61,619 nt of DNA from Thermoplasmata archaeon. GTDB taxonomy: Archaea > Thermoplasmatota > Thermoplasmata > Thermoplasmatales > Thermoplasmataceae. The stretch covers positions 1 through 61,619 of the forward strand of contig JAJYRA010000086.1 in NCBI GenBank assembly GCA_021794355.1. Reading direction: 5' to 3'. Every line of letters begins with the position of its first letter. The stretch's first letter is position 1. The position numbers and the translations under genes were made by a program. Below, piece after piece: positions 16,582-60,500 of this stretch. Under the pieces are notes generated by a model, which was given only the letters and a program-made list of their open reading frames with translations, was not told where the DNA came from and made no database searches.

Positions 16582-16734
16582 GATATTGTCACATTTGCGT
16601 TGATAATTTGAAAATGGAAAATACTCTAAAACAGTTACTTTGGAAAAAACTGCAATATTCGCCAGTTCAAACGAATTCTCATAGGGTTACCGGAATCCGC
16701 AGGGGTTAAAAATCAACTATAACTAGACACTGCC
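16582..16734 (+). mobile_element. Degenerate full-length MITE copy
   Basis: About 153 bp. It begins GATATTGTCACATTTGCG and carries the internal block TTGATAATTTGAAAATGG, then GGTTACCGGAATCCGCA and AAAAATCAACTAT. The right terminus has drifted (GACACTGCC in place of GACAATGTC). The flanking 8-mers do not match, so this is an old insertion or a rearranged one. Confidence 0.65.
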
Positions 16735-32206: not shown

Positions 32207-32360
32207 GATATTGTCTATTTTTAGTTGATTTTTGCTCCTTGCGGATCCCACTAACTTTATGAGCATTTGTATTAACTAGGGAATGGTGCGGTTTATGCTC
32301 AAGGTAATTGTTTTAGAGTGCTTTCAGTTTTCAAATTATCAACGAAGCTTTGAAAATGCC
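32207..32360 (-). mobile_element. MITE copy with perfect 8-bp target duplication
   Basis: A 154-bp non-coding element in reverse orientation relative to the copy at 33747. It is flanked by CGTATATG at 32199-32206 and again at 32361-32368, an exact 8-bp target-site duplication. The left end reads GATATTGTC, followed by TTTTTAGTTGATTTTTGC; the right end ATTATCAACGAAGCTTTG. This is one of three copies with recognisable 8-bp duplications. Confidence 0.8.
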
Positions 32361-32648: not shown

Positions 32649-33157
32649 AAAATTCCCTCTGTACTCCGAGCACCATTACATTTATTATGCCAAAAGTATG
32701 TTTGAATCCGTTTTTTCATGTATCAATCCCTTATAGGGTATATTTCTGACGTTCTACACGTCCGTTCCTCGTGTTGACGTATCCTTGTATCAATCCCTTA
32801 TAGGGTATATTTCTGACAGTACTGTCTTATCAGGATCCGCGGAGTCATACTCTCGTATCAATCCCTTATAGGGTATATTTCTGACGTCAGGCAGATCCGT
32901 ATCCATGGTTTCCATGATCAGTATCAATCCCTTATAGGGTATATTTCTGACGGCATACATTTGCAGTAAAGGCCATAATGGATAACGTGCCCTTGAATGT
33001 ATTGCAGCAATGGTTAGGGCACTCAAGTGTTTTCACCACATCTATATACACACAGATAACGGGAATGGATACCTCAGAATTCATGGGAAGGGTGAAATGA
33101 TCATAAGTTAGGCATGAGACCCTAGACCTCTGGGAAGGAAAAAGTTTAGTGGCTGAC

Positions 33158-33268
33158 TTAAATTAAACCGCTGAGACCATAGATTAGCATTACCGTTCCG
33201 ATTATGAAACCTGTAATAAAAAATGCTCCTACATAGGGATTCCTTTTCTCCTCATACTTTTCGCTCAT
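33158..33268 (-). CDS. 36-residue single-helix membrane protein inside array A
   Basis: A short gene: MSEKYEEKRNPYVGAFFITG followed by FIIGTVMLIYGLSGLI. A charged N-terminus and one clear transmembrane helix make it look like a small accessory subunit of a membrane complex, though which one is not clear. A TTTAAATA promoter-like box lies about 20 nt upstream. It follows the 3' end of another membrane gene by 24 nt, so the pair was probably cut out of an operon elsewhere. Confidence 0.55.
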   Translation of the reverse strand: MSEKYEEKRNPYVGAFFITGFIIGTVMLIYGLSGLI

Positions 33269-33292
33269 AAGAATACATATTTAAATTGTTTA

Positions 33293-33445
33293 TTAATATT
33301 TTCCTTTCGAAAACCAATCTGTTGCCCCAAGGAATGTTCCAAACATGATAGCAATGGCAGCGAGTACCCACCAGATGCCGGCAGCACTTTGTCCTGTATA
33401 ATTAAACTGTTCGGTAATTGCTGTTCCCAGAGGAGTAATTAAGGC
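33293..33445 (-). pseudogene. C-terminal fragment of a membrane protein, cut by a CRISPR repeat
   Basis: The last 50 codons of a gene whose 5' part is missing: ALITPLGTAITEQFNYTGQS followed by AAGIWWVLAAIAIMFGTFLG and ATDWFSKGKY. The frame opens exactly at the junction with the repeat and is closed by a stop within the repeat upstream, so it cannot be translated in full. One transmembrane helix remains. The parent family is not recognised; a respiratory-chain or transport subunit would fit. Confidence 0.55.
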
Positions 33446-33746
33446 ATATCAATCCCTTATAGGGTATATTTCTGACAAGAGGGAGAGAGGGAACTGCTCG
33501 ACATCGAAAGAAGTATCAATCCCTTATAGGGTATATTTCTGACCCTGGTCCATCATCATGCAATCACCTCATCATCTACTGTATCAATCCCTTATAGGGT
33601 ATATTTCTGACAGTGGGACAGAGCACCACAAGTTCCTGACCATGTCGGGTATCAATCCCTTATAGGGTATATTTCTGACTTGCAAACGACATAATCCTCC
33701 GGGAAATTGCATCCAGTATCAATCCCTTATAGGGTATATTTCTGAT

Positions 33747-33900
33747 GACATTGTCAAATTTTCGTTGATAATTTGAAAATTGAAAACACTCTGGAAAAAT
33801 TACTTTAAGCAAAAACAGCACTATTCCCTGGTTTAAACAAATCTTCATTAGGTTACCGGAATCCGTAAGGAGTAAAAATCAACTAAGATTTGACAATGTC
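33747..33900 (+). mobile_element. MITE inserted in a CRISPR repeat
   Basis: A 154-bp element with ends GACATTGTCAAA and, on the other strand, GACATTGTCAAA-like (TTTGACAATGTC at the right end). It is flanked by TTTCTGAT (33739-33746) and TTTCTGAC (33901-33908), an 8-bp duplication of the last eight bases of the 31-nt repeat, with one later C-to-T change. After the right duplication a normal 36-nt spacer follows and then the next repeat, proving the insertion point is inside the repeat. It has no coding capacity, so it must have been moved by a transposase in trans. Confidence 0.9.
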
Positions 33901-34070
33901 TTTCTGACTAAATGGTTATATACTCAAAAAAGATAAGAAATCACGTATCAATCCCTTATAGGGTATATTTCTGACAAGACTTTGGTTGGTTCGATTAAAG
34001 GGTTGTTTACCTAAAATAACCATATCAACTAAATTCTTTTTGTAATATTAAAGTTTCCTTATCCATTATA

Positions 34071-41984: not shown

Positions 41985-43377
41985 TCAGTGGATCTCCGGA
42001 TAAAGCTCCAGATTACCGCAGTGGAAGTATATTGCTGTCTTGAAATGTTCCTTGTTACGGTATCCATAAGCCATCTTTTGAATTGTTGTTATCTTTGAGT
42101 TCATGCCTTCTGCTATTGCATTGGTTATTCTGTGGGTGAAATATGCCATTACACCGGAGAGATGTTTCTTGATCATTTTCGCCTTCTTTATTATGGGATC
42201 AAGTCTTGAGTGAGTGGCCCAGAAATACCATCTCTTCCAGAACTCCATTGCCTCTTCCACTGTGGTACAGTTCCAGAGGTTTCTCAGGTTCTCCTTTATG
42301 GAATATGCCCTTGCAGTCTTGAGATCGGAATTCTTCAGTTCATTGAATATCTTCCTGTATTTTTTGGGAAGATTCTTCTCGGCATAAAGCCATATATATT
42401 TCGTTCCTGTAAGAGTACCATTTCCACTCTTTCTTAATATGGTATTCTCATGCTTCCTCACATCGTCAAGTGCCTGGTTCATGTGTTTGCTTATGTGAAA
42501 GCGATCAAAAACAATCTTTGAATCAGCATCTTTCACATATCTTTTCGTCGACATGATATAGGGTTTCCACATATCCATGCTTACAGATCTTATCTTCTTT
42601 CTGTTGACAATGTCAAATCCTCGTTGATAATTTGAAAATTGATAACACTCAGTAACAGTTACTTTGAGCAAAAACCACACTATTCTCCAGTTCAACCGAA
42701 TCCTCATAAAGTTAGTGAGATCCGCAAGGAGAAAAAAATCAACTAAAAGTTGACAATGTCTTTCTGTTCTCCCTGTCCAGTGTTTTGTAATATCCATTGA
42801 TGGAGGATTTCTTCCTGCCAAAGGATACATATTCCACTCCGGGTTTTATGAGATTGTAGATGATTGTGACATAATTATGGTGTTTACCGTATGATTTCTC
42901 GTCTATGCCTATGATCTCAGGATTGGAAGTTTTTCTTGCAAGTCCCCTGTTAACAGCCTTATCCATGATGTGCCATGCCTCATCCCTTGTTATTCTGAGT
43001 ATTTTAGAGGCCTTCGTTACATCTGTTGCCTGAAGAACGTCTATTGCATGGGTTTCAAACCTTGTCGTGAACCTGGAACTCTTTTCAGACCATGGTACAT
43101 TGGCCAGCATAATACCATGTTTCTTACATCTTATCCTGGGAGGTTTTGCATGTATGTAAGTCTCAAAGTCAATACTGTCCTTGTCCCTCCATATCCTTTC
43201 CCTCTGATGATCGTATACTATGGATTCTGTACTACATTCAGGGCATGGGAATTTAACCCCTTTTGGGTGATCCACATATATGTCCAGGGTGTGTTTACCC
43301 TCATTCATAATGACATTCTGGACAATCCATGGGGGTTTCAGATTAAGAAGCTTTTTACAGAATTCTTTTTCATCCAC
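41985..43377 (-). pseudogene. ISL3-family transposase interrupted by a MITE
   Basis: The N-terminal half (43377 down to about 42761) has the zinc-binding CPECSTESIVYDHQ and CKKHGIM segments, the helix-turn-helix region and the first acidic motif IIGIDEKSYGKHHNY. The C-terminal half (about 42605 to 41985) resumes KKIRSVSMDMWKPYI, then SKIVFDRFHISKHMNQAL and the catalytic Glu in RITNAIAEGMNSKI. Removing 42606-42760 plus one copy of the 8-bp duplication restores a single frame (LDRENRK joined to KIRSVSM). So the gene was intact until the MITE entered. Confidence 0.92.
42606..42760 (+). mobile_element. MITE inserted in the ISL3 transposase gene
   Basis: A 155-bp copy, flanked by TTTCTGTT at 42598-42605 and 42761-42768 (exact 8-bp duplication). 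Ends are GACAATGTCAAA and TTGACAATGTC. It is closely similar throughout to the copy in the CRISPR repeat at 33747, including TTGATAATTTGAAAATTG and ATCAACTAA-A near the right end. Both insertion sites begin TTTCTG, hinting at target preference. Confidence 0.9.
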
Positions 43378-44341: not shown

Positions 44342-45055
44342 ATGGAGAGTACCTTAGTTAACATAAAACGATCAAAGGGAGTCATTATTCCGTATGAATA
44401 TAACTATTATTTGTCTATTAGTCTTTATTCAAAACTGAGGTTATATCAAGAGAATATTAAAAAGTTGCATACTAAAACTCAACCAGGAATGCACACTTTC
44501 AGCAACATAATATCTAAAGCATCCAAGGGTGGAGTTAATGGTTTAGATATTAATGAAGGCTTTTTTATATTCAGGTCGGTTGATCCTTCGTTGAATATGT
44601 ATCTTCGGTTAGGACTCTCAATAGATCCGATTATTAGGATTGGAGATGTAAGCTATTTAGTGAGCAGTGCTAAAAGCATTTCGGATAAGTTGCTAGACCA
44701 GGAGGAAGTAAATTTTAAATCTTTATCCCCAGTATTGGTGAGAAACTTTAAAGAGAGGAACATTTTTCTTAATTTCCCAGATGATCTAGAAACAAACTTA
44801 AATTTGGTGAGCAAATGGGTTCTAAAGGAAACCTATAATTTTTCCGAAAATGATCTGGATAGTTTAAGGATCATTATTACTTCAGCAAAGAGAAGGACGG
44901 TAAAGATCTCCAACTCAAAAAATAAAGAATCAATAACAACGGCATTTCAACTGAAGGGAAGTATAAGAGGAACACCGGAAGCACTGAAAGTTCTTTATTA
45001 TAAAGGTATAGGCTCTAAAACTTCTCTGGGACTAGGCTGTTGGGAGGTTGACTAG
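44342..45055 (+). CDS. cas6: Cas6 pre-crRNA endoribonuclease
   Basis: A 237-residue RAMP protein that cuts precursor CRISPR RNA within repeats. The two ferredoxin-like halves are seen in beta-alpha segments (VIIPYEYNYYLSISLYSK; FQLKGSIRGTPEALKVLYYK). The diagnostic glycine-rich loop is at the C-terminus, GIGSKTSLGLGCWEV. A candidate catalytic His lies in the first third (KLHTKTQPGMHTFSN). It is the first gene of the rightward cas operon, ending directly at the GTG of cas10d. Confidence 0.9.
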   Translation: MESTLVNIKRSKGVIIPYEYNYYLSISLYSKLRLYQENIKKLHTKTQPGMHTFSNIISKASKGGVNGLDINEGFFIFRSVDPSLNMYLRLGLSIDPIIRIGDVSYLVSSAKSISDKLLDQEEVNFKSLSPVLVRNFKERNIFLNFPDDLETNLNLVSKWVLKETYNFSENDLDSLRIIITSAKRRTVKISNSKNKESITTAFQLKGSIRGTPEALKVLYYKGIGSKTSLGLGCWEVD

Positions 45056-47782
45056 GTGACTAACCAAGAATTTAGGCTTGAAAATAATTATATAATTTTC
45101 AAAAATGAATCTTTTAACGAAGCCATGAATTGGGCTGTAGAAGAAATTTTTCAGAAAATATGGTTGGATGAAACGTGGTCCAAGTGCGCAAAGGGAGGAA
45201 ACCATCCAGAAAACAAGAGCTTTGAAAAACATAGGGATATGGGTTATCAGGTACACATTTTTTCTGGAACCGCAATGGCCATGAGAGTTTTGGATTTTTC
45301 ATATACATCCAATACTTTGCACCTTCCGGAAAACGAATTATTAGTAAAACTTAAACGCTCAATTCTGGGATATCTTTTCCATGATTTTAACAAATTAACT
45401 GGATCGGATTATCACATGCAAGATAAATCGGCATTAAACGACCTAATAGATACAAGTTTTGGTGACTTAACAAAGGAAATAGGTTTGAATAACGACAACA
45501 TTTATCAGATTGCAATATGCACTGAAAAAGGTACATCTTTTAATATATTACGTAACGACGTATCTACTTCTCCTCTTGAGTTTGAAATGAACTTTTCTAG
45601 ACTAGCAGATGTCCTTTCTGGAAGTTTCAACGACTTAAATGATGAACCGTTAAGGGATATTTCTTTTGGTCCTAAGGTTATAATTTCTGGACGGGATATA
45701 GGTAAGATAAAAATCTCCAACACAAATTTAGTTGCTATAACAGATCTACTTAAGAAATCATGTATTAAAATGATAAACGAAGACTTTAAAGGAACGTATT
45801 TGTGGAGTGATTATGATACAATTTATTATGTATTCGGACCATCCAAACTATCTAAAAATGAGATAAATGCAAAAATATTAGAAAAATTCTCAAATTATGT
45901 TTCTCTCGTGATGCGCCCTGAAAGACTGTTAACATTGAATGATCGTAGGGTAGATAACGCAGCCTCTGGTTTTATTGATCATTCTGAAGATTCAATGATA
46001 AAGTTTCTGTCTGAGGAAAAAAATATCCGGATGTGCATTCACTTAGAAGACATAAAGCTAGATTCACCCTATAAGCAAAGGTTTGCAGAAGAGTATGGCG
46101 ATTATTTATTGGATACCTATCCATGTGCGTCTTTTTCAATCAATTTTAGATTTACGAAAGAGAAGGAAGGAGGGCATTCCATAAGGGACAGTCTCAAGGT
46201 GAATGATTATGACGAACGTCAAGATAATGAACGTTTGAACATATTTTTAATAAGATATGTGCAGCTTGTAAGTGAACTACAAAGTAAGAGTGCACAAGAA
46301 TTAAGAGAACTCATAGACCATACAATATCTGAAAATAAAGGAAAACTATCTCATATTCTTGGAAAAGAACCAAAGAAATCTGTTCTTATATTCCCAATAC
46401 TTTTGAAGAGCAACTCCATTGATTGGAAACAATTATTGATTGACGTACTACAAAATCTTAATAAAAACTCTAAGTCGGTTGACTACACGAATGTAGTACC
46501 CAGAATTCTTTCGTCTCTCTTTACTGATATATCACTTCCCAACGTACCAAACAAGTTTTCAATGTCAATGGTAAACGGATATCCTGCAAAAGAGGATGCT
46601 AAAGGGGATAAACTATATGGTTTAAACACCAATGGTTTTAATAATCGCTTACCAACATCTAGAATAAGCTTCGGCAAGATTGATGATATCTCGATGCTAG
46701 AATACAACATAAGAAGAAATATAATTCCTGAGAGATTAGGAAATGGAACTCTAATTTATTTAAGATTTCCTGGAGCAATACCACATTTAGACGTAGCTGG
46801 ATTCATTCATAAGATTTCACGTTCAAAGCAAAGTGAAAGAGTAGTAATTAACTGGTTGGATCTTTCTATTGATCAGTTTGGAGAGGAGCCAAATACAGTT
46901 AGGGTTGATGATTCATTTTTCTTCACCACACCAGAAATCAAAAAGGAAGAAGACATTCTAAGGCAATTATATGATGCTTTAACCATTGCTCAAAGGACAA
47001 AAATGACAATTCGCGTTTCATATTCGAATGCTCCGGTTTTTGAAGATCAATTCGAATCAGTAAGAGTTGATCTTTCCAGTAATTTATTGGCATTCTTTTC
47101 ATGGGATCGAATTAGATGTAACCAGATATCCAATATCATAAGGACCATACAAACATTTAATGTAGTTTCTAATGGTTCTATAGAAAAGATTAATTTTACA
47201 GACACATACGAAGTAATTTCTAGTTATATGCAAAACCCTATGTCCATTTTTTACTACGTGCATAGAAGGGTTTTTGCGAAGGAAGGTAAAAGTGAGTCGC
47301 GAGGTTTTGGAAAACAGTTTTCCCAACGGATAGAAGATATAAAAAAACTGGGGTATGGAGAAGAAAAAAAAGGTGATAGAAAAATGAAAAACATAGAAGA
47401 ATTGGCTAAAACAGCATCTAAAATAGCATATGCGAACTGGAAGATGAGTGGGAACGATAGAACTTGGATGCTAAGAGACCCACTGGAAGCAATAGAAGTA
47501 GCAAGGGCGAAGATAGTGTCCGGTGAAAAAAGGGACTTAGACGAGTATAAAGACATAGTGGGAGGCGTTCTTAATACTAAACTGAGAAGGGAAAAAAGCG
47601 ATGGAAATAGTAACTGGATACCAATTGGGGAAATTGAAAAATTTTCAGAAATACTTATTCGAATGTTAAAGGAAGATTTTAAGGGACAAGTGCCTTCGGG
47701 TGCAATGAAGTCTTATCTGATTAACGCTTTTGAATTTGAGTATATGTTAACAATAGGAAAAAAAGGTGATATAAATGAATAA
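45056..47782 (+). CDS. cas10d: Cas10d (Csc3), large subunit with HD nuclease domain, subtype I-D
   Basis: A 908-residue large subunit of the I-D Cascade. An N-terminal HD domain carries H109-D110 in LGYLFHDFNKLTG (H-D-x-x-K) with an earlier His in GYQVHIFSGTAM. The central Palm-like region (TYLWSDYDTIYYVFGPSKL) lacks a GGDD motif, so no cyclase activity is expected. The last ~130 residues are helical and correspond to the small subunit (see Cas11d). In I-D the DNA-cleaving HD nuclease sits here rather than in Cas3. The GTG start has GGGAGGTTGA upstream; it overlaps csc2 by 8 nt. Confidence 0.9.
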   Translation: MTNQEFRLENNYIIFKNESFNEAMNWAVEEIFQKIWLDETWSKCAKGGNHPENKSFEKHRDMGYQVHIFSGTAMAMRVLDFSYTSNTLHLPENELLVKLKRSILGYLFHDFNKLTGSDYHMQDKSALNDLIDTSFGDLTKEIGLNNDNIYQIAICTEKGTSFNILRNDVSTSPLEFEMNFSRLADVLSGSFNDLNDEPLRDISFGPKVIISGRDIGKIKISNTNLVAITDLLKKSCIKMINEDFKGTYLWSDYDTIYYVFGPSKLSKNEINAKILEKFSNYVSLVMRPERLLTLNDRRVDNAASGFIDHSEDSMIKFLSEEKNIRMCIHLEDIKLDSPYKQRFAEEYGDYLLDTYPCASFSINFRFTKEKEGGHSIRDSLKVNDYDERQDNERLNIFLIRYVQLVSELQSKSAQELRELIDHTISENKGKLSHILGKEPKKSVLIFPILLKSNSIDWKQLLIDVLQNLNKNSKSVDYTNVVPRILSSLFTDISLPNVPNKFSMSMVNGYPAKEDAKGDKLYGLNTNGFNNRLPTSRISFGKIDDISMLEYNIRRNIIPERLGNGTLIYLRFPGAIPHLDVAGFIHKISRSKQSERVVINWLDLSIDQFGEEPNTVRVDDSFFFTTPEIKKEEDILRQLYDALTIAQRTKMTIRVSYSNAPVFEDQFESVRVDLSSNLLAFFSWDRIRCNQISNIIRTIQTFNVVSNGSIEKINFTDTYEVISSYMQNPMSIFYYVHRRVFAKEGKSESRGFGKQFSQRIEDIKKLGYGEEKKGDRKMKNIEELAKTASKIAYANWKMSGNDRTWMLRDPLEAIEVARAKIVSGEKRDLDEYKDIVGGVLNTKLRREKSDGNSNWIPIGEIEKFSEILIRMLKEDFKGQVPSGAMKSYLINAFEFEYMLTIGKKGDINE
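47371..47377 (+). promoter_or_regulatory. Internal ribosome binding site inside cas10d
   Basis: AGGTGAT, a seven-base match to the archaeal anti-Shine-Dalgarno sequence, sits six bases upstream of an in-frame ATG (47384). The same AGGTGAT sits four bases upstream of the csc2 ATG at 47775 in the same operon, so the cell clearly uses this signal here. Confidence 0.75.
47384..47782 (+). CDS. cas11d: Cas11d small subunit, internal translation product of cas10d
   Basis: An in-frame start within cas10d (its codon 777) would give a 132-residue protein beginning MKNIEELAKTASKIAYANWK. The product is largely helical, with WMLRDPLEAIEVARAKIV and GEIEKFSEILIRMLKEDF. In other subtype I-D systems Cas11d is known to be made by internal translation from the 3' part of cas10d and to line the crRNA-DNA hybrid in several copies. 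The strong internal ribosome binding site supports the same here. Not a separate gene; it shares its stop with cas10d. Confidence 0.75.
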   Translation: MKNIEELAKTASKIAYANWKMSGNDRTWMLRDPLEAIEVARAKIVSGEKRDLDEYKDIVGGVLNTKLRREKSDGNSNWIPIGEIEKFSEILIRMLKEDFKGQVPSGAMKSYLINAFEFEYMLTIGKKGDINE

Positions 47783-48776
47783 AAATTTAGAAAAAATAGG
47801 AAAAGAGTTGAACTTGCCAGACATTAGTGACTTAGATCTAAGAAAAAATCATGGTATATTCATAAAGATTGGCATTCTTTCTGAAACCAGCGGCTTTTTC
47901 ATTAATAGAAATAATGAATCAACTGAAATCACGAGTGAAAATTTCTTTGATAAGGATAGGGTGGTAGTGCCCGCATCCAAATGGAGGGGGGCAGAAAGAA
48001 GCTATTTGTTATCAGAAATGAGAAAGGCATCAGGAGTAATACCACAGGAATACAGCAGAAATATGGTAACTAGGAAAAATTTATTGAAGAATCCATCAAG
48101 TTTAATATATGGGGACTCAAGCACCGGTTCTGGTAATGAAGCCGCAGGAATAGCATCTAGAGTGTTTTACGATTGGGCTTATAGCTTCGAATCGCTCCCG
48201 GATATTTCGGTACGATTAACTCATAACTCACTATCTGAAGAGGGAACAATTCTCCACGAGGAAAATGGGAAAGTAAAACCAAATGCAATTTTCAACACCC
48301 CTTATATCAAACCCGGTGTTAAATTCATTAGATACGTTACAGTAGAGAATTCTTCTATTGAAATGCTAGCATTAGTACTTATGGCAATAAACGGGACAAC
48401 TAGGTATGGTGCAAGGACAGCTATCTTAGGGGATAACATGAAAAACAAGATAATCGGAATAGGGTTCTCAAAAAGAGAAACATCAATAAGTTCTTTTACA
48501 ACCGTAAGAAAATGTTGGACTCAAGAGAAATATAATCCCGAAGAAGAAATTCTTGCTGATATGAAGGACACATATGGTTCAAATTTGATACATGGCGATA
48601 GACTGAGAGAGCTATTAATTGCCACTTTAGAAGTAAAAAATGATATTTCTGTGCTTAAAGAGATGTGTGATTTAATAAACACAAAAATGAGTCGAGACTG
48701 GGAGGAGTTTTGGGGAAATAAGGGAAGGAAAGACAAAAATACTAAGCAGACTAAAAATGAAGACGAGGAAGAGTGA
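47775..48776 (+). CDS. csc2: Csc2 (Cas7d), crRNA-binding backbone protein
   Basis: A 333-residue Cas7-type RAMP that polymerises along crRNA. The Csc2 signature region is visible in SSLIYGDSSTGSGNEAAGIA and SRVFYDWAYSFESLP. Flanking blocks are FDKDRVVVPASKWRGAERSY and TVENSSIEMLALVLMAINGT, then RYGARTAILGDN. The ATG lies within the end of cas10d with AGGTGAT before it. The C-terminus is charged (DKNTKQTKNEDEEE). Confidence 0.88.
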   Translation: MNKNLEKIGKELNLPDISDLDLRKNHGIFIKIGILSETSGFFINRNNESTEITSENFFDKDRVVVPASKWRGAERSYLLSEMRKASGVIPQEYSRNMVTRKNLLKNPSSLIYGDSSTGSGNEAAGIASRVFYDWAYSFESLPDISVRLTHNSLSEEGTILHEENGKVKPNAIFNTPYIKPGVKFIRYVTVENSSIEMLALVLMAINGTTRYGARTAILGDNMKNKIIGIGFSKRETSISSFTTVRKCWTQEKYNPEEEILADMKDTYGSNLIHGDRLRELLIATLEVKNDISVLKEMCDLINTKMSRDWEEFWGNKGRKDKNTKQTKNEDEEE

Positions 48777-48781
48777 TATGA

Positions 48782-49453
48782 ATGGAGATAACTCCAATAA
48801 AAATTGAGACACTTTCTCCCGTAAACTATTATTATGTTGCAGCTGCTGGGGGGATGAGAACATCCTCATTTATTGGAGACATTGCACTTAAATATGCCAC
48901 TCTTAGACAGTTGGGGTATCTTGATTATCCCGAACCAACAAAATTCCAACCTACCTATGATGATTTAAATAGGTTTGATTTCTGGTTTACTGTTGCAATC
49001 AGCGAAAAATTGGCTTTTGGCGAAGGATCTCCAACACTTTATATGAAGAATATGATTAGAAATACAATGCATGGGATAGATTACAACGGATCTAATAAAT
49101 ATCCCAATGCGAGAGAAGGTAGCACGATGTATAAAAATTTTTATTTCCAGCAGCCAATTAGACCTGGGAATTTTTTTTATTGTTATCTTATAAGCAAGTC
49201 AAAGATAGATCTACCTATGACAATAAGGGTTGGAAACGGTAAAACGGGAATATTGAATCTTACAAAACAACTTACAGGAAAATTTAATGGGATACTTAAC
49301 CTCTACACATTGCAGAATATACTAAAAACCAAATTAGGTGATATTGAGTATACCTTTACTGAACATTTGATTTTACAATACTATCTGATTGGGATGTTTT
49401 CCAAAGAAAAGATTGGTGAGATTTACAATGAATGGGATAATAGGAACTTATAA
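48782..49453 (+). CDS. csc1: Csc1 (Cas5d), 5'-handle-binding subunit
   Basis: A 223-residue RAMP protein of the Csc1 group. The typical start (LSPVNYYYVAAAGGMRTSSF, then IGDIALKYATLRQLGYLDYP) is seen. The remainder alternates strands with RPGNFFYCYLISKSKIDLPM and the KFNGILNLYTLQNIL stretch. It should cap the crRNA 5' end in the effector complex and help read the PAM. It begins 5 nt after csc2 and its end overlaps the cas3' start by 26 nt. Confidence 0.85.
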   Translation: MEITPIKIETLSPVNYYYVAAAGGMRTSSFIGDIALKYATLRQLGYLDYPEPTKFQPTYDDLNRFDFWFTVAISEKLAFGEGSPTLYMKNMIRNTMHGIDYNGSNKYPNAREGSTMYKNFYFQQPIRPGNFFYCYLISKSKIDLPMTIRVGNGKTGILNLTKQLTGKFNGILNLYTLQNILKTKLGDIEYTFTEHLILQYYLIGMFSKEKIGEIYNEWDNRNL

Positions 49454-51272
49454 CCTGAAACCCTCATATATTGAAAGAGAGGAATCTGGAGAAATGCGAA
49501 AATTTCAAAAGGATGTATTAGAGTTCGTGGAAGAAAATAGTAAGAGAGTGGCAATATTAGACGCCCCTACAGGTTCTGGTAAGACATACATGTTTAAGAA
49601 AATCGCTTCCAATGAAAAAAAGGCGATAATAGTGTTACCAAACAATCTGCTTGCAGAAGAGGTTTATCGTGATTTAGGTGATAATGCTTGCGTTCTTAAT
49701 AAGGAATCTATAAATAGAACTCTAAACGAAAGGAAAAAAAGAGATAATCCTCTATACAATACTAAATCGGATGCTATTGAAGAAATGATATCATCTAAGG
49801 CTTATATAGTTACCAATCCAACCGTTTTTTATTACCTATTGATCAATCACTATACTAAAAGTCATAGAGACGATATGATAAGCATACTTGTAAAGGGTAA
49901 TATTAAAACTGTAATATTTGATGAGTTTCATATCTATTCAAGAGACCAAATTTCTATGATATTTGCTTCTGCTTTGGCCCTACCTTACAGGATAAAAATT
50001 ATGTTTAGTAGTGCAACCCCTCAAAAATTCTTTAGCGATCTGTGTAAAGATGTTTTTGGGACAGAAAACTTGGAAGAAATCCATGTCTCCCGTTCATATA
50101 TCAAGAGTGAAAATAGTGACATATTGCAAGGACCGATTTCCGTTGATATATTCAATGAAGAAGCTTCCATATTTGTAGATAAGAATTTGAAATTATTTAA
50201 CACAGGAAAATGGGTAATAATCTTGGACTCATTGAAAAATATTGATAAGGTTATCAATTTATTAGTTTCGAAATATGGCAAAGAAGAAATCGGTCTCGTA
50301 TCTGCATATTATGACCCCCTCCACAAGACTTATCAAAGCACAAAGCAGCATGATAACAAGTTTAGAATAATAGTTAGTTCAAATATCATTGAACAGGGTA
50401 TAAACTTAAGCAGAGAATATATAAATTTTCTCATTGAAGCAGGCTCCTCTGCTAACAGTTTAGTCCAAAGAATCGGAAGAGTGGGGAGAGGAGTAGAGAC
50501 CGAAAGCAAAGTTATTTTATGCTTTGGGGGTGGAATGCAGACAACACAAAAGAACATTGAAACCATGGATGATTTGATTGCTTTTATATATAAATTAAAT
50601 TACGGAAAAGATTCGTATAGCCCAACGTCGTTTGGAATAGGTGTATATGTAAGCCTTTTCATAGATAAATTAACGACAAAGGCAGGAGAAGCAATTCTCA
50701 GCAATATCATAGAATACGACAATAAAAAAATAAACGCTGGAATCTATAGCTGTAAAAATGTGAATGATACATTAACCAACAGAGAAGGTCTGAAAATTAT
50801 TAAGCGAAACTGCCTCAGAGAAATATTTAAAGTATCCACTTGGTGGGAAAAATATAAGGATTCGTTCTACAATTTTATACCAAGTCAAGCAGGGAAGGTC
50901 AGTGTAGTAGATGAGGATTATATTTTTGAGGGAAACTTTCTTAAAACCAAATATGATGAAATATGGATTAATAAAAATAAGGAAATTTTAGAAAGAACCG
51001 GTGAACAATTTGTTGTTGGGAAATTTAACAGAAAGCCAAATTATGATTTTGAGGTCATAGTTGAAAATACTCCACTGGGTTCAAAAAAAATGAAATATAA
51101 AGATATTGCGTTTAGTGCGAGGAAAGACATTTTAGAAGATATTAAGGGGCAGCTTGAAAATTTACTTTGTCTGAGCAACGATAAGATTCAAACACTGATT
51201 AATAACATTATTTCATGCACAAAAGAAACAGCAGGACTTGAGAGGTTGGCGTTGGAGATAAGTTATGCTTAG
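49428..51272 (+). CDS. cas3': Cas3' helicase of subtype I-D (no HD domain)
   Basis: A 614-residue superfamily 2 helicase. Walker A is DAPTGSGKTYMF, the DEAH-type motif II is IFDEFHIYS, motif III FSSATP, motif V SSNIIEQGINLS and motif VI QRIGRVGRGVE. There is no N-terminal HD nuclease domain; that domain is in Cas10d, as expected for I-D. The ATG at 49428 (MNGIIGTYNLKPS) is chosen; a longer frame overlapping csc1 further is basic and unlike the family. It overlaps cas4 by 8 nt. Confidence 0.9.
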   Translation: MNGIIGTYNLKPSYIEREESGEMRKFQKDVLEFVEENSKRVAILDAPTGSGKTYMFKKIASNEKKAIIVLPNNLLAEEVYRDLGDNACVLNKESINRTLNERKKRDNPLYNTKSDAIEEMISSKAYIVTNPTVFYYLLINHYTKSHRDDMISILVKGNIKTVIFDEFHIYSRDQISMIFASALALPYRIKIMFSSATPQKFFSDLCKDVFGTENLEEIHVSRSYIKSENSDILQGPISVDIFNEEASIFVDKNLKLFNTGKWVIILDSLKNIDKVINLLVSKYGKEEIGLVSAYYDPLHKTYQSTKQHDNKFRIIVSSNIIEQGINLSREYINFLIEAGSSANSLVQRIGRVGRGVETESKVILCFGGGMQTTQKNIETMDDLIAFIYKLNYGKDSYSPTSFGIGVYVSLFIDKLTTKAGEAILSNIIEYDNKKINAGIYSCKNVNDTLTNREGLKIIKRNCLREIFKVSTWWEKYKDSFYNFIPSQAGKVSVVDEDYIFEGNFLKTKYDEIWINKNKEILERTGEQFVVGKFNRKPNYDFEVIVENTPLGSKKMKYKDIAFSARKDILEDIKGQLENLLCLSNDKIQTLINNIISCTKETAGLERLALEISYA

Positions 51273-51783
51273 TGATGAAATGTATCGTGGTACAGATGTA
51301 AGTTATGTTTGCATTTGTTTGCGGAGGGCTTGGCTTTCAACTCATGAGATATATATTACTGATGGAACAGAGTTTGTCAAAATGGGTTCATATACTAATG
51401 ATGTGGAGAGGAACTATGGGTACTCTCAAGTTTCCATAGGACGAAATAAGATAGATTATTTGCAACTATTACCGGATAAGAAATGTATAATACATGAATT
51501 CAAAAGGGGAAGAAAAGTTATTGATGCGGATTTATTCCAGATCAGTCACTACATGAATATAGCCTCGTCCTCGGGATATGATATAGATCACGGTGAAATT
51601 CATTTTCTTGGGTCTAAAAAAATAAAGAAGGTAAACTTTCCACTGGAAAATGAAAACTCTCTAAAAGAAAAATATAGAATGATTGATAAATTGAAGCAAT
51701 CCACTATACCAAAGATGGAGAGAAATTATTTCTGTTCCCATGGCTGTAGTTATGTTGAATTTTGTTGGGGTTCAAATGAGTGA
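51265..51783 (+). CDS. cas4: Cas4 nuclease of the adaptation module
   Basis: A 172-residue PD-(D/E)XK nuclease with a probable iron-sulfur cluster. The catalytic motif is in CIIHEFKRGRKV, followed by the QISHYMNIASSSGY helix. Cysteines for the cluster are in YVCICLRRAW and the C-terminal CSHGCSYVEFCWG. In adaptation it trims prespacers and sets PAM and orientation. A second ATG 15 nt in (MYRGTDVSYV) is possible. It overlaps cas1 by 8 nt. Confidence 0.9.
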   Translation: MLSDEMYRGTDVSYVCICLRRAWLSTHEIYITDGTEFVKMGSYTNDVERNYGYSQVSIGRNKIDYLQLLPDKKCIIHEFKRGRKVIDADLFQISHYMNIASSSGYDIDHGEIHFLGSKKIKKVNFPLENENSLKEKYRMIDKLKQSTIPKMERNYFCSHGCSYVEFCWGSNE

Positions 51784-52735
51784 CATATATTATTTAATTA
51801 AATCGGGTACTCTGTCTAAGTCTTCAGGCTCAATAGTTTTAAAAAATGAAGTCGAAACTGTAGAAATACCTACTGAAAATGTTGACATGATTGCAATTTT
51901 TGGCAACGTCACATTCACAACTCCTGCCTTATCCCTTCTTGCAGATTCTAAGATTCCGGTCATAATTTTTACTGAAAGAGGGTGGTATATCTCCAGTATT
52001 TTCCCAGACAATTATCTCCAGAGTGGCTATGTATTAAAAAGGCAGGTTGAATTCTCCATAGACCAGTCCAGACGACTGGAAATAGCGAAATTATTTGTTC
52101 TAGGTGCATCAAAAAACATGAGGCGTGTTGTAGCTAGACTTGGTGCAGGCAATCTCCCAACAAACCAAGCCAAAATAAATTCGGCTAGAACCATACAGGA
52201 ACTAATGGGAGTTGAAGGAAATATACACATCAACTATCTGGAACGACTGGATACAAAGCTACCCTCAAATTTTAAAATAAATGGAAGAAGCAGACAACCA
52301 CCGGGTAATCCTGTGAACGCTATGATGAGTTATCTTTATTCCGTACTTTATGGAACAATAACGTCAGAAATACTCAGAACTCATCTATCTCCATCCATAA
52401 GTTTTCTACATGAATCAACCGAACGCAGATCAAGTTTAGCGTTAGATGTAAATGAGATATTTAGGCCAATTATCTGTGATAGGATTATACTGAAGCTTAT
52501 TAATCTTAAAATGATGAATGATGGGGATTTCATATCAGACAGTGGAATATATTTAAGCGCCATTGGGAAAAGAAAAGTGCTTGAATCTTTCGACGAAAAG
52601 ATGAGAGAGACTGTTTTTGTTCGTGGACTGGGAAGAAACGTATCTTTGCGGAGATTGATTAGGCTTGAATTGTATAAACTAGAAAAACATGTATTAGACG
52701 ATGTCCCATATAAACCGTATGTTACGAGGATATAA
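51776..52735 (+). CDS. cas1: Cas1 integrase
   Basis: A 319-residue spacer integrase. The N-terminal beta domain starts SDIYYLIKSGTLSKSSGSIV. The catalytic helical domain carries PVNAMMSYLYSVLYGTI, FLHESTERRSSLALDVNEIF and RPIICDRI with the usual acidic and His residues. The ATG at 51776 (MSDIYYL) overlaps the cas4 stop; the longer frame upstream is a cas4 shadow. It acts with Cas2 and Cas4 to add spacers. Confidence 0.95.
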   Translation: MSDIYYLIKSGTLSKSSGSIVLKNEVETVEIPTENVDMIAIFGNVTFTTPALSLLADSKIPVIIFTERGWYISSIFPDNYLQSGYVLKRQVEFSIDQSRRLEIAKLFVLGASKNMRRVVARLGAGNLPTNQAKINSARTIQELMGVEGNIHINYLERLDTKLPSNFKINGRSRQPPGNPVNAMMSYLYSVLYGTITSEILRTHLSPSISFLHESTERRSSLALDVNEIFRPIICDRIILKLINLKMMNDGDFISDSGIYLSAIGKRKVLESFDEKMRETVFVRGLGRNVSLRRLIRLELYKLEKHVLDDVPYKPYVTRI

Positions 52736-52737
52736 CT

Positions 52738-52998
52738 ATGTGGGTAATTCTAGCATATGATATAAATAAAAAAAGAGTGAATGAAATAAGAAAAATATGT
52801 TTACCCTATTTAAGAAGGATACAAAACTCAGTTTTCGTAGGAGACATTACACGCGGCAATTTAACCATTTTAGTATCAAAATTAAATCGAAAAATCGAAA
52901 AATCTGAGGATTCTGTTGAAATATTTGTGTTAAGAGACCAAAAGTTGGCCAAACGACTATCTATTGGCATTAGCAAAGAATTTAGTAATATAATTTGA
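52738..52998 (+). CDS. cas2: Cas2, adaptation partner of Cas1
   Basis: An 86-residue ferredoxin-fold protein. It begins MWVILAYDINKKRVNEIRKI with the conserved acidic residue after the first strand, then LRRIQNSVFVGDITRGNL and EIFVLRDQKLAKRL. It starts 2 nt after cas1 and ends the cas operon. The Cas1-Cas2 pair is complete, so adaptation may be active. Confidence 0.93.
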   Translation: MWVILAYDINKKRVNEIRKICLPYLRRIQNSVFVGDITRGNLTILVSKLNRKIEKSEDSVEIFVLRDQKLAKRLSIGISKEFSNII

Positions 52999-53091: not shown

Positions 53092-53550
53092 TTATTTTAA
53101 TTTTTTTGTATTACCTACCATTTTATCGAAGAACGGTTTCAGTTTGAGTATGTTCATTAACTGTTCCGCATCCTGATCCATCTCGCTGAGATTCCATTCC
53201 ATCTTCCTTTTTTCATATAATGATCCGACTGCCTGTACATTCCGGAGGGTCTCTAACGCCCTTTCTCCACTCATGTCCATCCCGGAATCCTTTAATTTCT
53301 GTCTCAGGATACGCAATGCGAGCAATGCAATGACACATACAAACATGTGCAGGGATATCTGCTGATCTGTCCATGTGAACATGGGCGTTACAGATACGTT
53401 ATCGTCATAGTTCATCTTCCTGAATCCATCCTCTATGATCCACCGATCCTTGTAATGCTCAATGATGGATGATGTTTCCATGTCAAGCCTGTCCGTGAAG
53501 AGGATATTCTTTCCGAACGTGAAATCAACCAGATCGAGACTGTGGAAGAT
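53092..53550 (-). pseudogene. C-terminal fragment of an IS1634-family transposase
   Basis: About 150 codons remain: FGKNILFTDRLDMETSSIIE followed by HYKDRWIIEDGFRKMNYD (the C-terminal Y-R-E region) and WTDQQISLHMFVCVIALLAL. The N-terminal two thirds are missing; the break at about 53550 joins another IS fragment in the opposite orientation. It differs from the intact transposase at 30510, so it came from a different element. Confidence 0.85.
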
Positions 53551-53881
53551 TGAACTGCAGAAGTTTGCAGATGAATCTCATCTCGATATAACAGTATGTC
53601 ACTTTCCTCCAGGCATGAGCAAGTGGAATAAGATTGAGCATCGCATGTTCTCATACATCACCATAAACTGGCGTGGAAAACCCCTGAGATCCTATGAAAC
53701 CATAATAGAACTCATAGGCAACACACGAACAAAGAACGGGTTAAAGATATCCACAGATATTGATACCGGGATATACGAAACGGGAAAAAAGATATCAGAT
53801 GAGGATCTGGAAAAGATAAAACTGATCAGGGATGAATTTCACGGTAACTGGAATTACACAATTGGTTCAAGAACCAGATAA
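53551..53881 (+). pseudogene. C-terminal fragment of an ISAzo13-family transposase
   Basis: The last ~110 codons of an ISAzo13 transposase: LWKIELQKFADESHLDITV, then CHFPPGMSKWNKIEHRMFSY, INWRGKPLRSYETIIELIG and the C-terminal EFHGNWNYTI. The 5' part is gone. Its stop is followed within about 30 nt by a truncated CRISPR repeat, so the element or a deletion it caused ended in that mini-array. Confidence 0.88.
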
Positions 53882-53908: not shown

Positions 53909-54052
53909 CTAAGTGTGATGGCGCCTATTACTTGTTGAGTATGAACAAGTACAGTGGTATGCGGGGGACTTAAACTAAGTGTGATGTTTATACCGCATAT
54001 AACTTTACCAAACGACATTAGAGTATGCGGGGGACTTAAACTAAGTGTGATG
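53909..54052 (+). CRISPR. Relic mini-array: two and a half 30-nt repeats
   Basis: Full repeats (start GTATGCGGGGGACTTAAA, end CTAAGTGTGATG) lie at 53957-53986 and 54023-54052. A truncated first repeat keeps only the last 12 bases (53909-53920). The two intervening segments are exactly 36 nt each. The repeat is unlike those of arrays A and C and has no leader or cas genes of its own; it is evidently the remains of a separate array beheaded by the IS debris to its left. Transcription direction is unknown. Confidence 0.8.
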
Positions 54053-54063
54053 GAGCCTATTAC

Positions 54064-54288
54064 CCTTGCACTCTACTATGTAGTAGTAATCCTTCAATGC
54101 TGACTATCCCGTGCTGTGTTATCATATCCCCTTGCACTCTACTATGTAGTAGTAATCCAAAATCATCGCAGCAATATACTGTATAACTATTATACCTTGC
54201 ACTCTACTATGTAGTAGTAATCCAAGGATGGGTCCACCCGTTCAGCCAGCCTTATGGATCCTTGCACTCTACTATGTAGTAGTAATCC
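54064..54288 (+). CRISPR. CRISPR array B: four 29-nt repeats
   Basis: The repeat starts CCTTGCACTCTACTA and ends TGTAGTAGTAATCC. Copies are at 54064, 54130, 54195 and 54260, all identical, with spacers of 37, 36 and 36 nt. It contains a 6-bp palindrome CTACTA/TAGTAG able to form a small hairpin. It begins only 11 nt after the relic mini-array, yet its repeat is different. No dedicated cas genes are visible. Confidence 0.93.
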
Positions 54289-54577
54289 TGGTTTCCTTTC
54301 CTCTTACGGATTATGAATGCCACGTATAAATATATAGAGTAATACAAAATAGATAATACGGCAAAACTAGTGAAAATCGGACTGCGTGGAAAGATAATTG
54401 TGAAAAAAATTGAGATGGTTGTAAACTTCAGTTAAAGACGTTAATCTGAAAGGGAATTGTTAAACAGAGCAAAGAATGATCAAACCTTTAAATACTCTAA
54501 TATAAATGGATGCTTTGTCACTTTTTCTCAAAAATTAAAGAATGTTTTAATAGTAAAATTCCATGTTTTAGGAGCGG
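54289..54577 (+). promoter_or_regulatory. Leader of CRISPR array C
   Basis: About 290 nt, A/T-rich, without genes, between array B and array C. CCTTTAAATACTC near 54484 looks like a BRE-TATA promoter; transcription would start near 54510, about 65 nt before the first repeat. Polarity fits the repeat, whose 3' end (ATTGAAAG) is the usual crRNA 5' handle. New spacers are expected at this end. Confidence 0.7.
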
Positions 54578-57500
54578 GTAAAAATTGAACCTTGATAGGA
54601 TTGAAAGAAATCAAAAAAAGCAAGGCCGGACTGCATGCCTCGTAAAAATTGAACCTTGATAGGATTGAAAGTTGTTGACAGTCAGTCTGAAATTCCCATT
54701 TCCATACAGTAAAAATTGAACCTTGATAGGATTGAAAGATGGTACTCGCTGACAATGGGATAGCAGCAATAGATGTAAAAATTGAACCTTGATAGGATTG
54801 AAAGCTGTATCTGGATGGGATCATCGCATCCGCAATAATGTAAAAATTGAACCTTGATAGGATTGAAAGACCAGATGGTTGCGTATGGCCCCATTTAATA
54901 CGTCGTAAAAATTGAACCTTGATAGGATTGAAAGATGATCGCTTCCCAGGCAAAGAAGCATGTATTTTTGTAAAAATTGAACCTTGATAGGATTGAAAGC
55001 TGTGTTTGATTTTTCAAAGGCAGGGACATATACCGTGTAAAAATTGAACCTTGATAGGATTGAAAGGCTGACCGAAATTGGATTTATTATCCTATCCTTG
55101 TTGTAAAAATTGAACCTTGATAGGATTGAAAGTAATATCATTAGGGGCAATCTAAAAACATCACTAGTAAAAATTGAACCTTGATAGGATTGAAAGGGGC
55201 AAACAGGTACAATAAAAACCTGTAGTAACCCTGTAAAAATTGAACCTTGATAGGATTGAAAGTCTGTACTGGCAGTGTTAGAAGAGAATATTACCACGTA
55301 AAAATTGAACCTTGATAGGATTGAAAGGATTTAATGTTTTTGCGCTGTATGATTTCATCTATAGGTAAAAATTGAACCTTGATAGGATTGAAAGTTTTAC
55401 TATGTTTTAAAGAGGCAATTCCCTAAACTTGTAAAAATTGAACCTTGATAGGATTGAAAGCTGAAATTATTGCCGTTATCCCTGTCCCTAGGAGGAGTAA
55501 AAATTGAACCTTGATAGGATTGAAAGCCAGTAGGAGCTGAGCTAGGGACAGTGGCTGCAAGTGGTAAAAATTGAACCTTGATAGGATTGAAAGTTTTCTG
55601 GAGCCGCATAGGTCCTATGGATTGGACTTGGTAAAAATTGAACCTTGATAGGATTGAAAGATGAAATAATAATTAAAAGCATTAGTTGAATTTAACGTAA
55701 AAATTGAACCTTGATAGGATTGAAAGAGGGGCAGTTGGCACTCCAGAGCAATCCTCCATTATTGGTAAAAATTGAACCTTGATAGGATTGAAAGTTGTTA
55801 CTACAGTAACAGTTTTTTTACTCTTTTCGTAAAAATTGAACCTTGATAGGATTGAAAGTTGGACCTGGCCCGTGCATATTTCGATATTTTCGAGGAGTAA
55901 AAATTGAACCTTGATAGGATTGAAAGGGAATATAGATATATGCATAAAGTTGTATATACATAGTAAAAATTGAACCTTGATAGGATTGAAAGATGAAGTG
56001 CTTACCAAAATAGGCACCTATACCCGCCGTAAAAATTGAACCTTGATAGGATTGAAAGAATTTTCATTCTTACTATAATGGTAACCTTATCATAGTAAAA
56101 ATTGAACCTTGATAGGATTGAAAGTCAGAGATTTTCAGGATTTTTGATTTTTCGTAGGTTGTAAAAATTGAACCTTGATAGGATTGAAAGCTCCACAATT
56201 CCAATTAAGATTAGGATTAATCCTCCAGTAAAAATTGAACCTTGATAGGATTGAAAGTTGTGAATGGATTACAGCCGTATGGTCTATTTCCTGTAAAAAT
56301 TGAACCTTGATAGGATTGAAAGTGTTTTTGTTCCGCCGGGCTAATAACATCCATAAGCGTAAAAATTGAACCTTGATAGGATTGAAAGCTTATTTGCTTC
56401 GTCAACACCGATCCTGCAAAACGCGGTAAAAATTGAACCTTGATAGGATTGAAAGTATTGACTCTTTTAATTATTTCAAAACATCGCTCAAGTAAAAATT
56501 GAACCTTGATAGGATTGAAAGTGCTAAAGTCAATTGACCTATAGGATTCAAATTGTAAAAATTGAACCTTGATAGGATTGAAAGGTAATTCCAGATGCAG
56601 ATAAAGCAGTTCCACCTTCTAGTAAAAATTGAACCTTGATAGGATTGAAAGATTTTTTATTACATTATTATGTATCGGCTCATTACTGTAAAAATTGAAC
56701 CTTGATAGGATTGAAAGATAAAAACGCAATATAAAACTTTTATTTTATTTATGGTAAAAATTGAACCTTGATAGGATTGAAAGACCAACCTCTTGTAAAA
56801 GGTCGCTCAGGGCGTCTTCGTAAAAATTGAACCTTGATAGGATTGAAAGTTTGTGGACTGGACAACATCACTTATGGCCTCTCCGAGTAAAAATTGAACC
56901 TTGATAGGATTGAAAGCTCTTACGATGAGGACATTGAATTTCGACTCCCAGGGTAAAAATTGAACCTTGATAGGATTGAAAGTTGTTGGGGAATGCCGAA
57001 GCTGGAATAACATATTCCAGTAAAAATTGAACCTTGATAGGATTGAAAGTATACGGTGGAAGACGCCCTGAGCGACCTTTTACAAGTAAAAATTGAACCT
57101 TGATAGGATTGAAAGTAAAAGGAGGTATGAAGATGAATGATTGGATGAACAGTAAAAATTGAACCTTGATAGGATTGAAAGCCGAACAGCGCCACTTTTA
57201 GCATGGCAATGGACAGGTAAAAATTGAACCTTGATAGGATTGAAAGGATTTAGTCCCCCCGATCCTTTTATGTCTATCTCAAGTAAAAATTGAACCTTGA
57301 TAGGATTGAAAGATAAATAATCTTGATGGTGAGGATGCGAGTTCTACTGTAAAAATTGAACCTTGATAGGATTGAAAGTTTTATTTTTCTTTCTTGTTAT
57401 TTTTTTCTTATTTAGTAAAAATTGAACCTTGATAGGATTGAAAGTGTTGTTTTGATTCTTGTAGCCATTTTCTACTTTTGTAAAAATTGAACCTTGATAG

Positions 57501-60500
57501 GATTGAAAGCAGATGCTGGCAAATCTCTTAATGCAGAATCAACAAGTAAAAATTGAACCTTGATAGGATTGAAAGCCTACCGGTACTCTGGTGAACCTGA
57601 ATGCTACTATGTAAAAATTGAACCTTGATAGGATTGAAAGATATTATCTCATTTTTTCTTTTTTCTTTTTATATCTTGTAAAAATTGAACCTTGATAGGA
57701 TTGAAAGCCTTTCATGTTCAAGTCTTGTCTCATACGCTTTTTGTAAAAATTGAACCTTGATAGGATTGAAAGTTAGGTTTCCTTGAAATTCTTACAGCAT
57801 AGACCTGTAAAAATTGAACCTTGATAGGATTGAAAGAGAAGGTATTCGCAATTAAAATGGTCGTCCCCACACTCGTAAAAATTGAACCTTGATAGGATTG
57901 AAAGTTAGTATTACTGAATTTTCGAACGAAAAGATTAGACGTAAAAATTGAACCTTGATAGGATTGAAAGTCTCTTATAGGTCTTTTTGCAGTGTTCACA
58001 TTCTGTAAAAATTGAACCTTGATAGGATTGAAAGATAGGAATAAAATATCTTATACCTTCTTGAATAAATGGTAAAAATTGAACCTTGATAGGATTGAAA
58101 GGGAGGGGCAGAAGATTGTTGTGATGAAAATACCAGGGTAAAAATTGAACCTTGATAGGATTGAAAGAGGTAAAAAAAATGGATAAAAACGATGTAGAAA
58201 AATGTAAAAATTGAACCTTGATAGGATTGAAAGTGTTTTTTGAATGCCGGTGGTCCACGAATAGACCTTGTAAAAATTGAACCTTGATAGGATTGAAAGA
58301 TGAATCGTTCCTGCAATAAGGTTGTCCACGAATGTGTAAAAATTGAACCTTGATAGGATTGAAAGTTCCATCAGCTTATTTATCTTTTCCTGCGATTTTG
58401 TAAAAATTGAACCTTGATAGGATTGAAAGTCTTCCTCTTTTCTGCCTGTTTAGAAGAGTTAATACAGTAAAAATTGAACCTTGATAGGATTGAAAGAATA
58501 TAGGGCCAATAAGCGTGTATTCCACGTAGGCGTAAAAATTGAACCTTGATAGGATTGAAAGTAAAATGCTTAAAATTAGTGCGTCCCTTGGGATAACAGT
58601 AAAAATTGAACCTTGATAGGATTGAAAGTCCTTTATATACGATTTTTTAGAAAAATCCATAGCGGTAAAAATTGAACCTTGATAGGATTGAAAGGGATCC
58701 GGATCCGTATATAGGAGGAGTCTGGGATGTGTAAAAATTGAACCTTGATAGGATTGAAAGGGTACAGGAGTTCGATTTGAGATAAGATGTATCTTTGTAA
58801 AAATTGAACCTTGATAGGATTGAAAGGCCATTGTTAGTTATGTAGCGGGGCTACTACCGCAGTAAAAATTGAACCTTGATAGGATTGAAAGAAGCATACA
58901 AAAAATATTGTAAGCATAAAAGATATAAGTAAAAATTGAACCTTGATAGGATTGAAAGATGTATGTGGAGAATGGAGGGTCGACCGTAATGGAGAGTAAA
59001 AATTGAACCTTGATAGGATTGAAAGCTTAATTATTCGATATATTCAACAAATAATACTAATGTAAAAATTGAACCTTGATAGGATTGAAAGTATATTTCA
59101 GAGATGAAGAGTATTATCTGAGAGCCCGTAAAAATTGAACCTTGATAGGATTGAAAGGTTGTTAGCCGGCACTGAAGATTGTCAAAGCTTTGAGTAAAAA
59201 TTGAACCTTGATAGGATTGAAAGAGCGAATTTCCTTACAAATAGCGATGCTTTGTCTTGTAAAAATTGAACCTTGATAGGATTGAAAGTTCAGATCAATC
59301 AAAGTGCCTGTGGGGACATATTTAGTAAAAATTGAACCTTGATAGGATTGAAAGTATATATCGAAATTAATCTAAGAGTAGGCTACAGCGTAAAAATTGA
59401 ACCTTGATAGGATTGAAAGCTTAACCTTAAATTAGGATATGTGCTTAATGTCGAGTAAAAATTGAACCTTGATAGGATTGAAAGTCCATGTGTAGCTACA
59501 TTTGTTGCAATTCACCTTTGTAAAAATTGAACCTTGATAGGATTGAAAGGATTTCTCCACCAACATACAGTTAGCATTTTATGAGTAAAAATTGAACCTT
59601 GATAGGATTGAAAGTAAAATTAGATACGTGGTATATAGGGACGTTTGAAGTAAAAATTGAACCTTGATAGGATTGAAAGAATACATACAGATCATGTAGT
59701 TTGCGAGAAATAATGGGTAAAAATTGAACCTTGATAGGATTGAAAGTGCATGTTTCCCCATTGCGATGGGGTCCATACATAGTAAAAATTGAACCTTGAT
59801 AGGATTGAAAGAATGATGTCCTGGAAGAAATATTTGAGGACCTTGAACGTAAAAATTGAACCTTGATAGGATTGAAAGTTGAGTGGTCATTTTATCCTCC
59901 TCTTCCTCACTATTGTAAAAATTGAACCTTGATAGGATTGAAAGTTTTCACGGACATCTTTGTTATCCGGGCATTCGCAGTAAAAATTGAACCTTGATAG
60001 GATTGAAAGCTTTCATACAATCATCTCACATTCTGTTGAAAACATGTAAAAATTGAACCTTGATAGGATTGAAAGAAAATCCCTTAAGGCCAGTTTCGCC
60101 CCCTCTTCATTGTAAAAATTGAACCTTGATAGGATTGAAAGTTGGCTTGAGAGGGGTTGTTTTTGTTCCAGGAGAAGTAAAAATTGAACCTTGATAGGAT
60201 TGAAAGTGTTAGTAGGTCTATTTCTCGTGGTTTACTTCCGGTAAAAATTGAACCTTGATAGGATTGAAAGGGGAATAGGGCAAAACGATCCAATCTCCTG
60301 GACGGTAAAAATTGAACCTTGATAGGATTGAAAGAGGGTGAGGAAACATCGATCGTGATCAGTCTTACCGGTAAAAATTGAACCTTGATAGGATTGAAAG
60401 AAAGTTGCTATGGCTCTTATATTGGCTTTAGTAGTGGTAAAAATTGAACCTTGATAGGATTGAAAGAAGAGAAAAACTATTGCAATCATGATCGTTATTG

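Follow-up and report, generated by a model that had tools for sequence, protein, structure and literature searches.

A review (PMC4390879) describes archaeal CRISPR loci as seldom containing mobile elements and cites one ISH4 element and one 132-bp MITE from euryarchaeal CRISPR loci (Lillestol et al. 2006, cited in PMC4390879). As far as the brief mention in the review goes, the 132-bp MITE is like the element described here, a short non-autonomous element within an archaeal CRISPR locus. In Sulfolobus solfataricus, the element ISC1359 likewise transposed into an archaeal array (PMC4390879), but that was a full IS, inserted into a targeting spacer and recovered under selection against the spacer, whereas the present element is a MITE at the edge of a repeat and shows no sign of selection. 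Insertions of ISs and MITEs into cas genes have also been catalogued (PMC10359306) and are likewise natural transpositions into CRISPR-Cas loci. Those cases break cas genes, whereas the cas operon of the locus analysed here is free of insertions and only an array is touched. The Sulfolobus MITEs SMN1 and SM3A are likewise short, bounded by terminal inverted repeats (TIRs), and thought to be moved in trans by resident ISs (PMC3718332). Their partners are ISC1733 and ISC1058 (PMC3718332), whereas the candidate partner here is a 1269-bp IS, the transposase of which scores below every family cut-off. Going by the case cited in the review, a MITE in a euryarchaeal CRISPR locus is already on record, and the insertion described here is a further, well-supported example.

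The insertion is located in array A of a 61,619-nucleotide stretch of DNA from an uncultured Thermoplasmata archaeon (the window). Array A is a CRISPR array of ten 31-nt repeats, eight of which are exact, separated by unique spacers of 35-37 nt, except for one gap of 494 bp and the gap that contains the MITE. The number of such repeats expected in dinucleotide-shuffled sequence is 0, so the array is not a product of chance, and its repeat was found nowhere else in the genome. The array and its insertion comprise the following features, in which the minus strand is the likely crRNA strand discussed below:

32720-32951, minus strand: leader-distal block of array A, four exact repeats.
32952-33445, unstranded: 494-bp stretch that replaces one spacer and contains incomplete genes: a tyrosine-recombinase-like gene, represented by its 3' end, and two small membrane-protein-like genes, represented in part.
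33446-33715, minus strand: middle block, in which four repeats alternate with four spacers up to the interrupted repeat; one terminal base is substituted in the repeat at 33446-33476.
33716-33746, minus strand: interrupted repeat, second from the putative leader, complete save for G to A at the first base of the crRNA strand.
33739-33746, unstranded: left copy of the target duplication, TTTCTGAT, coinciding with the end of the complete repeat 33716-33746.
33747-33900, unstranded: MITE, 154 bp, termini GACATTGTCAAATTTTCGTTGAT and GACATTGTCAAATCTTAGTTGAT, 21/23 alike.
33901-33908, unstranded: right copy of the target duplication, TTTCTGAC.
33909-33944, minus strand: spacer 1 (putatively leader-proximal), 36 nt; its downstream repeat is now 8 nt followed by the MITE.
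33945-33975, minus strand: putative leader-proximal repeat, exact.

The 494-bp stretch starts exactly at a repeat edge with the recombinase-like gene end, which is 92% identical to positions 79940-80089 of contig C79. At its other end, a truncated homologue of a small gene reaches the next repeat, the first base of which is changed. The motif GGCATA is present at both of its borders. It resembles the 'pseudo-spacer' SiL-E1 of Sulfolobus (PMC3718332) and possibly originated from misjoining or illegitimate recombination.

The sequence of the 154-bp element was read directly at the edge of the CRISPR repeat. Its ends form 23-bp TIRs, inverted copies of each other with 91% complementarity (21/23). 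The element has no coding capacity; the open reading frames that cross it are short and extend into the flank. The first-pass annotation had described a repeat that is complete except for C to T at its last base, followed by the 154-bp element, an 8-mer, a 36-nt spacer, and the next repeat, and the sequence confirms this order in full. The flanking octamers TTTCTGAT and TTTCTGAC form an 8-bp target duplication with 7/8 matching bases. Its sole mismatch, at the base adjoining the element, may have arisen by later mutation or through faulty repair. The MITE parts the outermost repeat-spacer unit from the rest of array A, as had been noted. No empty-site allele of array A was found.

A homologue search of the organism's own genome (2.05 Mb, 89 contigs) identified about 33 matches to the MITE, about 30 of them full or near-full copies and the others fragments. 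The copy in array A is 72-83% identical to the other genomic copies and 87% identical to the family consensus, whereas several pairs elsewhere in the genome are 94-97% alike when the copies are oriented first. Duplication lengths of 4 to 12 bp, bounded by the element, were tested on 30 copies. Perfect target duplications flank 13 of the 30, all of them 8 bp long, with no other length represented. Seventeen of the 30, including the array A copy, match in at least seven of eight bases, for which the chance probability is 0.0008 per pair. Three further copies in the window are as follows:

16582-16732, unstranded: fourth MITE copy, flanks degraded.
32207-32358 (element to 32360), unstranded: third MITE copy, flanked by the duplication CGTATATG and located 0.36 kb outside array A.
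42606-42760, unstranded: second MITE copy, flanked by the duplication TTTCTGTT; it splits an ISL3-family transposase gene (41985-43377).

Altogether, six full or partial MITE copies were counted in the window, where the genome-wide average predicts about one (post hoc P about 5e-4); the window also contains transposase genes or remnants of the IS1634, ISL3, and ISAzo13-like types.

The genome is a draft assembly of many contigs, and array A also holds the repeat-bounded 494-bp stretch, so that the insertion might be a misjoining artefact of a repeat-rich contig. However, the array A copy does not exceed 83% identity with any of the others and is therefore not a collapsed repeat, and both of its junctions obey the 8-bp duplication rule of the family. 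We consider such an artefact highly improbable.

When the genome was searched for the TIR pattern, one pair with IS-like spacing was found, 1269 bp in length (G000:C29:3858-5126; L031:559-1827). This IS has the same 23-bp TIR pattern as the MITE (TIR GACATTGTC...), a perfect 8-bp duplication, TAAACTAT, and an intact, uninterrupted reading frame of 400 amino acids. The IS and the MITE are evidently alike in their TIRs only. Three complete relatives of the IS are flanked by the perfect 8-bp duplications CTTATTTT, TAAAAATC, and CTTTTTAC. Other possible IS ends from a wider list of TIRs, at C26 and C37, were discarded, as no transposase-like frame was seen there by eye.

The 400-residue protein has matches in 25 of the 61 genomes searched, the organism's own genome counted, and in other named Thermoplasmata assemblies. 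In an alignment of seven homologues, residues D172, D231, C255/H258, and E365 are invariant, and we take this D/D/E signature with its C-x2-H motif to be that of a DDE transposase. Pfam profiles gave no significant match to the protein, and a PDB sequence search returned nothing meaningful. Its AlphaFold model has a mean pLDDT of 39. Among the NCBIfam profiles, ISH6 matched all seven homologues, with the match confined to the N-terminal zinc/helix region; the score was 39 bits, where the curated cut-off is 240. The similarity to ISH6 is weak but consistent, and with the cut-off missed by so much the IS was not assigned to that family. With no significant Pfam family and a weak NCBIfam match, it possibly represents an undescribed Thermoplasmata IS group.

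Judged from its sequence, the 1269-bp IS is the likely source of transposase for the MITE, which would have been mobilised in trans by the DDE-type enzyme of this element with the same TIRs. The first-pass identification of the 154-bp element as a MITE is supported by its TIRs, its roughly 33 dispersed copies, their 8-bp duplications, the lack of coding capacity, and the ends that it has in common with an autonomous element.

The orientation of array A was assessed by comparison with a genome of the same genus, which contains 21 repeats that differ from the array A repeat at two paired stem positions (CCCTATAAGGG versus CTCTATAAGAG). The difference, paired C-G to T-A, is compensatory. The array of the relative starts 154 bp downstream of a divergent type I-D operon, cas10d-csc2-csc1-cas3-cas4-cas1-cas2, in which cas2 was assigned from its position and length. 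A crRNA handle is usually 8 nt long, and the ATTGATAC end of the array A repeat resembles such a handle. Comparison of the leaders of the two arrays revealed no convincing similarity, and the strand call therefore rests on the handle-like ATTGATAC end and on the cas operon that adjoins the same-genus array. Together they indicate that the crRNA strand of array A is likely the minus strand, with the leader from 33976 onward. On the minus strand, the duplicated 8-mer would be the first eight bases of the transcribed repeat, and the second repeat would be the one with the MITE. The earlier reading of the flanking octamers as a target duplication holds, with 7/8 matching bases, whereas their assignment to the 3' end of the repeat probably does not, since on the likely crRNA strand they correspond to its 5' end (GTCAGAAA). 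Matches of the array spacers to fetched loci were essentially at chance level among those inspected.

Array A is located 10 kb from a type I-D cas operon, the adjoining array of which is a different one:

44342-52998, plus strand: type I-D cas operon with cas6, cas10d, cas7d/csc2, cas5d/csc1, cas3', cas4, cas1, and a cas2-like gene.
54578-61457, plus strand: array B, 105 exact copies of GTAAAAATTGAACCTTGATAGGATTGAAAG, a repeat that does not resemble that of array A.

The genome encodes one Cas6 and one Cas1, both of which belong to the I-D system with array B (at least 105 repeats). The single Cas1 is about 30% identical to the Cas1 adjoining the array A-type repeats of the same-genus genome. 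The Cas10d of that relative had no match in this genome in a search run without an in-genome positive control on an assembly that is 97% complete. Because the only Cas1 and Cas6 belong to the other I-D system and the relative's Cas10d is unmatched, array A is probably an orphan, the own I-D operon of which was lost or never present.

Fragments of IS1634 and ISAzo13-type transposases are located between cas2 and array B (53092-53881). Two sets of short repeats with periods of 65-66 nt, GTATGCGGGGGACTTAAACTAAGTGTGATG (two copies) and CCTTGCACTCTACTATGTAGTAGTAATCC (four copies), are positioned between the cas operon and array B (53957-54290) and resemble a further pair of mini CRISPR arrays.

The MITE appears to have entered array A at the border of a CRISPR repeat, 8 bp of which were duplicated. 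Because these 8 bp end exactly where repeat and spacer meet, one complete repeat would thereby have been rebuilt: a full 31-nt repeat is left on the leader-distal side. The interrupted repeat keeps 30 of its 31 bases, including the hairpin stem and the 8-nt handle, so that Cas6 cutting at the regenerated repeat should be possible. If the array is transcribed from the minus strand, Cas6 should still cut every downstream repeat. Spacer 1 is the only unit with a displaced downstream repeat, by 162 nt, and only its crRNA would be abnormal, with a 3' tail of GTCAGAAA plus MITE RNA. The acquisition of spacers at the intact leader-proximal repeat would not be obstructed by the MITE.

The first-pass annotation had presented the locus as a clear example of CRISPR array inactivation. 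Under such a reading, transcription or processing would be blocked and the spacers beyond the MITE silent. The 154-nt MITE transcript is predicted to form a long and strong hairpin (-35.6 kcal/mol, z -3.2), which would separate eight of the nine spacer positions from the putative leader, and IS insertions that disable CRISPR-Cas systems or single spacers have been documented (PMC10359306, PMC4390879). However, a scan of the MITE with models of bacterial-type terminators found no such site, and since a repeat with stem and handle survives and the leader-proximal repeat is intact, a general inactivation of array A is not supported. The repeat geometry argues against a general loss of crRNA production or interference. 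Moreover, as array A seems to be without its own cas operon, there may be little left to inactivate. We therefore regard inactivation as unlikely. With its own I-D cas operon apparently missing, array A looks orphaned, and the most likely role of the MITE is that of a neutral passenger with little functional effect.

The repeats of arrays A and B occupy 0.17% of the genome, and among 33 random insertions, 0.06 would be expected to land in a repeat. It had been proposed that the likeness of the repeats offers the MITE many targets, and the element could be attracted either to the repeat sequence or to nicks of the Cas1 type at the repeat borders. Cas1 normally attacks at the repeat boundary, with which the array A duplication is flush, and the target TTTCTGTT of another MITE copy is similar. 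Nevertheless, the other 16 clear duplications are unrelated and have no common motif beyond AT-richness. No other repeat carries an insertion, including all 105 exact repeats of array B, and the array A repeat does not occur elsewhere in the genome. Given the random expectation, one event is unusual, not extraordinary. The proposal of many targets is thus not supported, and an attraction to CRISPR repeats is very unlikely.

Within a repeat-spacer unit of about 67 positions, only about 2 are registers that leave a whole repeat, and the flush register is thus somewhat improbable by chance. It could reflect chance, selection, or a preference for the repeat border, between which one event cannot separate. 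We give scant credence to the variant in which the MITE used a boundary opened by Cas1-Cas2 and the array stays processable with the hairpin-forming element inside it.

The array A MITE differs from its family consensus by 13%, whereas the repeat and duplication have one change in 39 bases (P about 0.03 under equal divergence). Because the repeat and duplication changed far less than the MITE, the divergence of the element may be older than the insertion, or the repeat may be constrained.

Taken together, we consider it probable that a MITE mobilised in trans inserted at a repeat edge of the orphan array A, regenerated one repeat, and persists most likely as a neutral passenger. The case is documented with its target duplication, a family of copies, and a candidate source of transposase. 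An insertion 'in a repeat' need not break the repeat, since a duplication flush with the repeat edge rebuilds it. Interrupted repeats should be called inactivated only after a search for a regenerated copy and for cognate cas genes.
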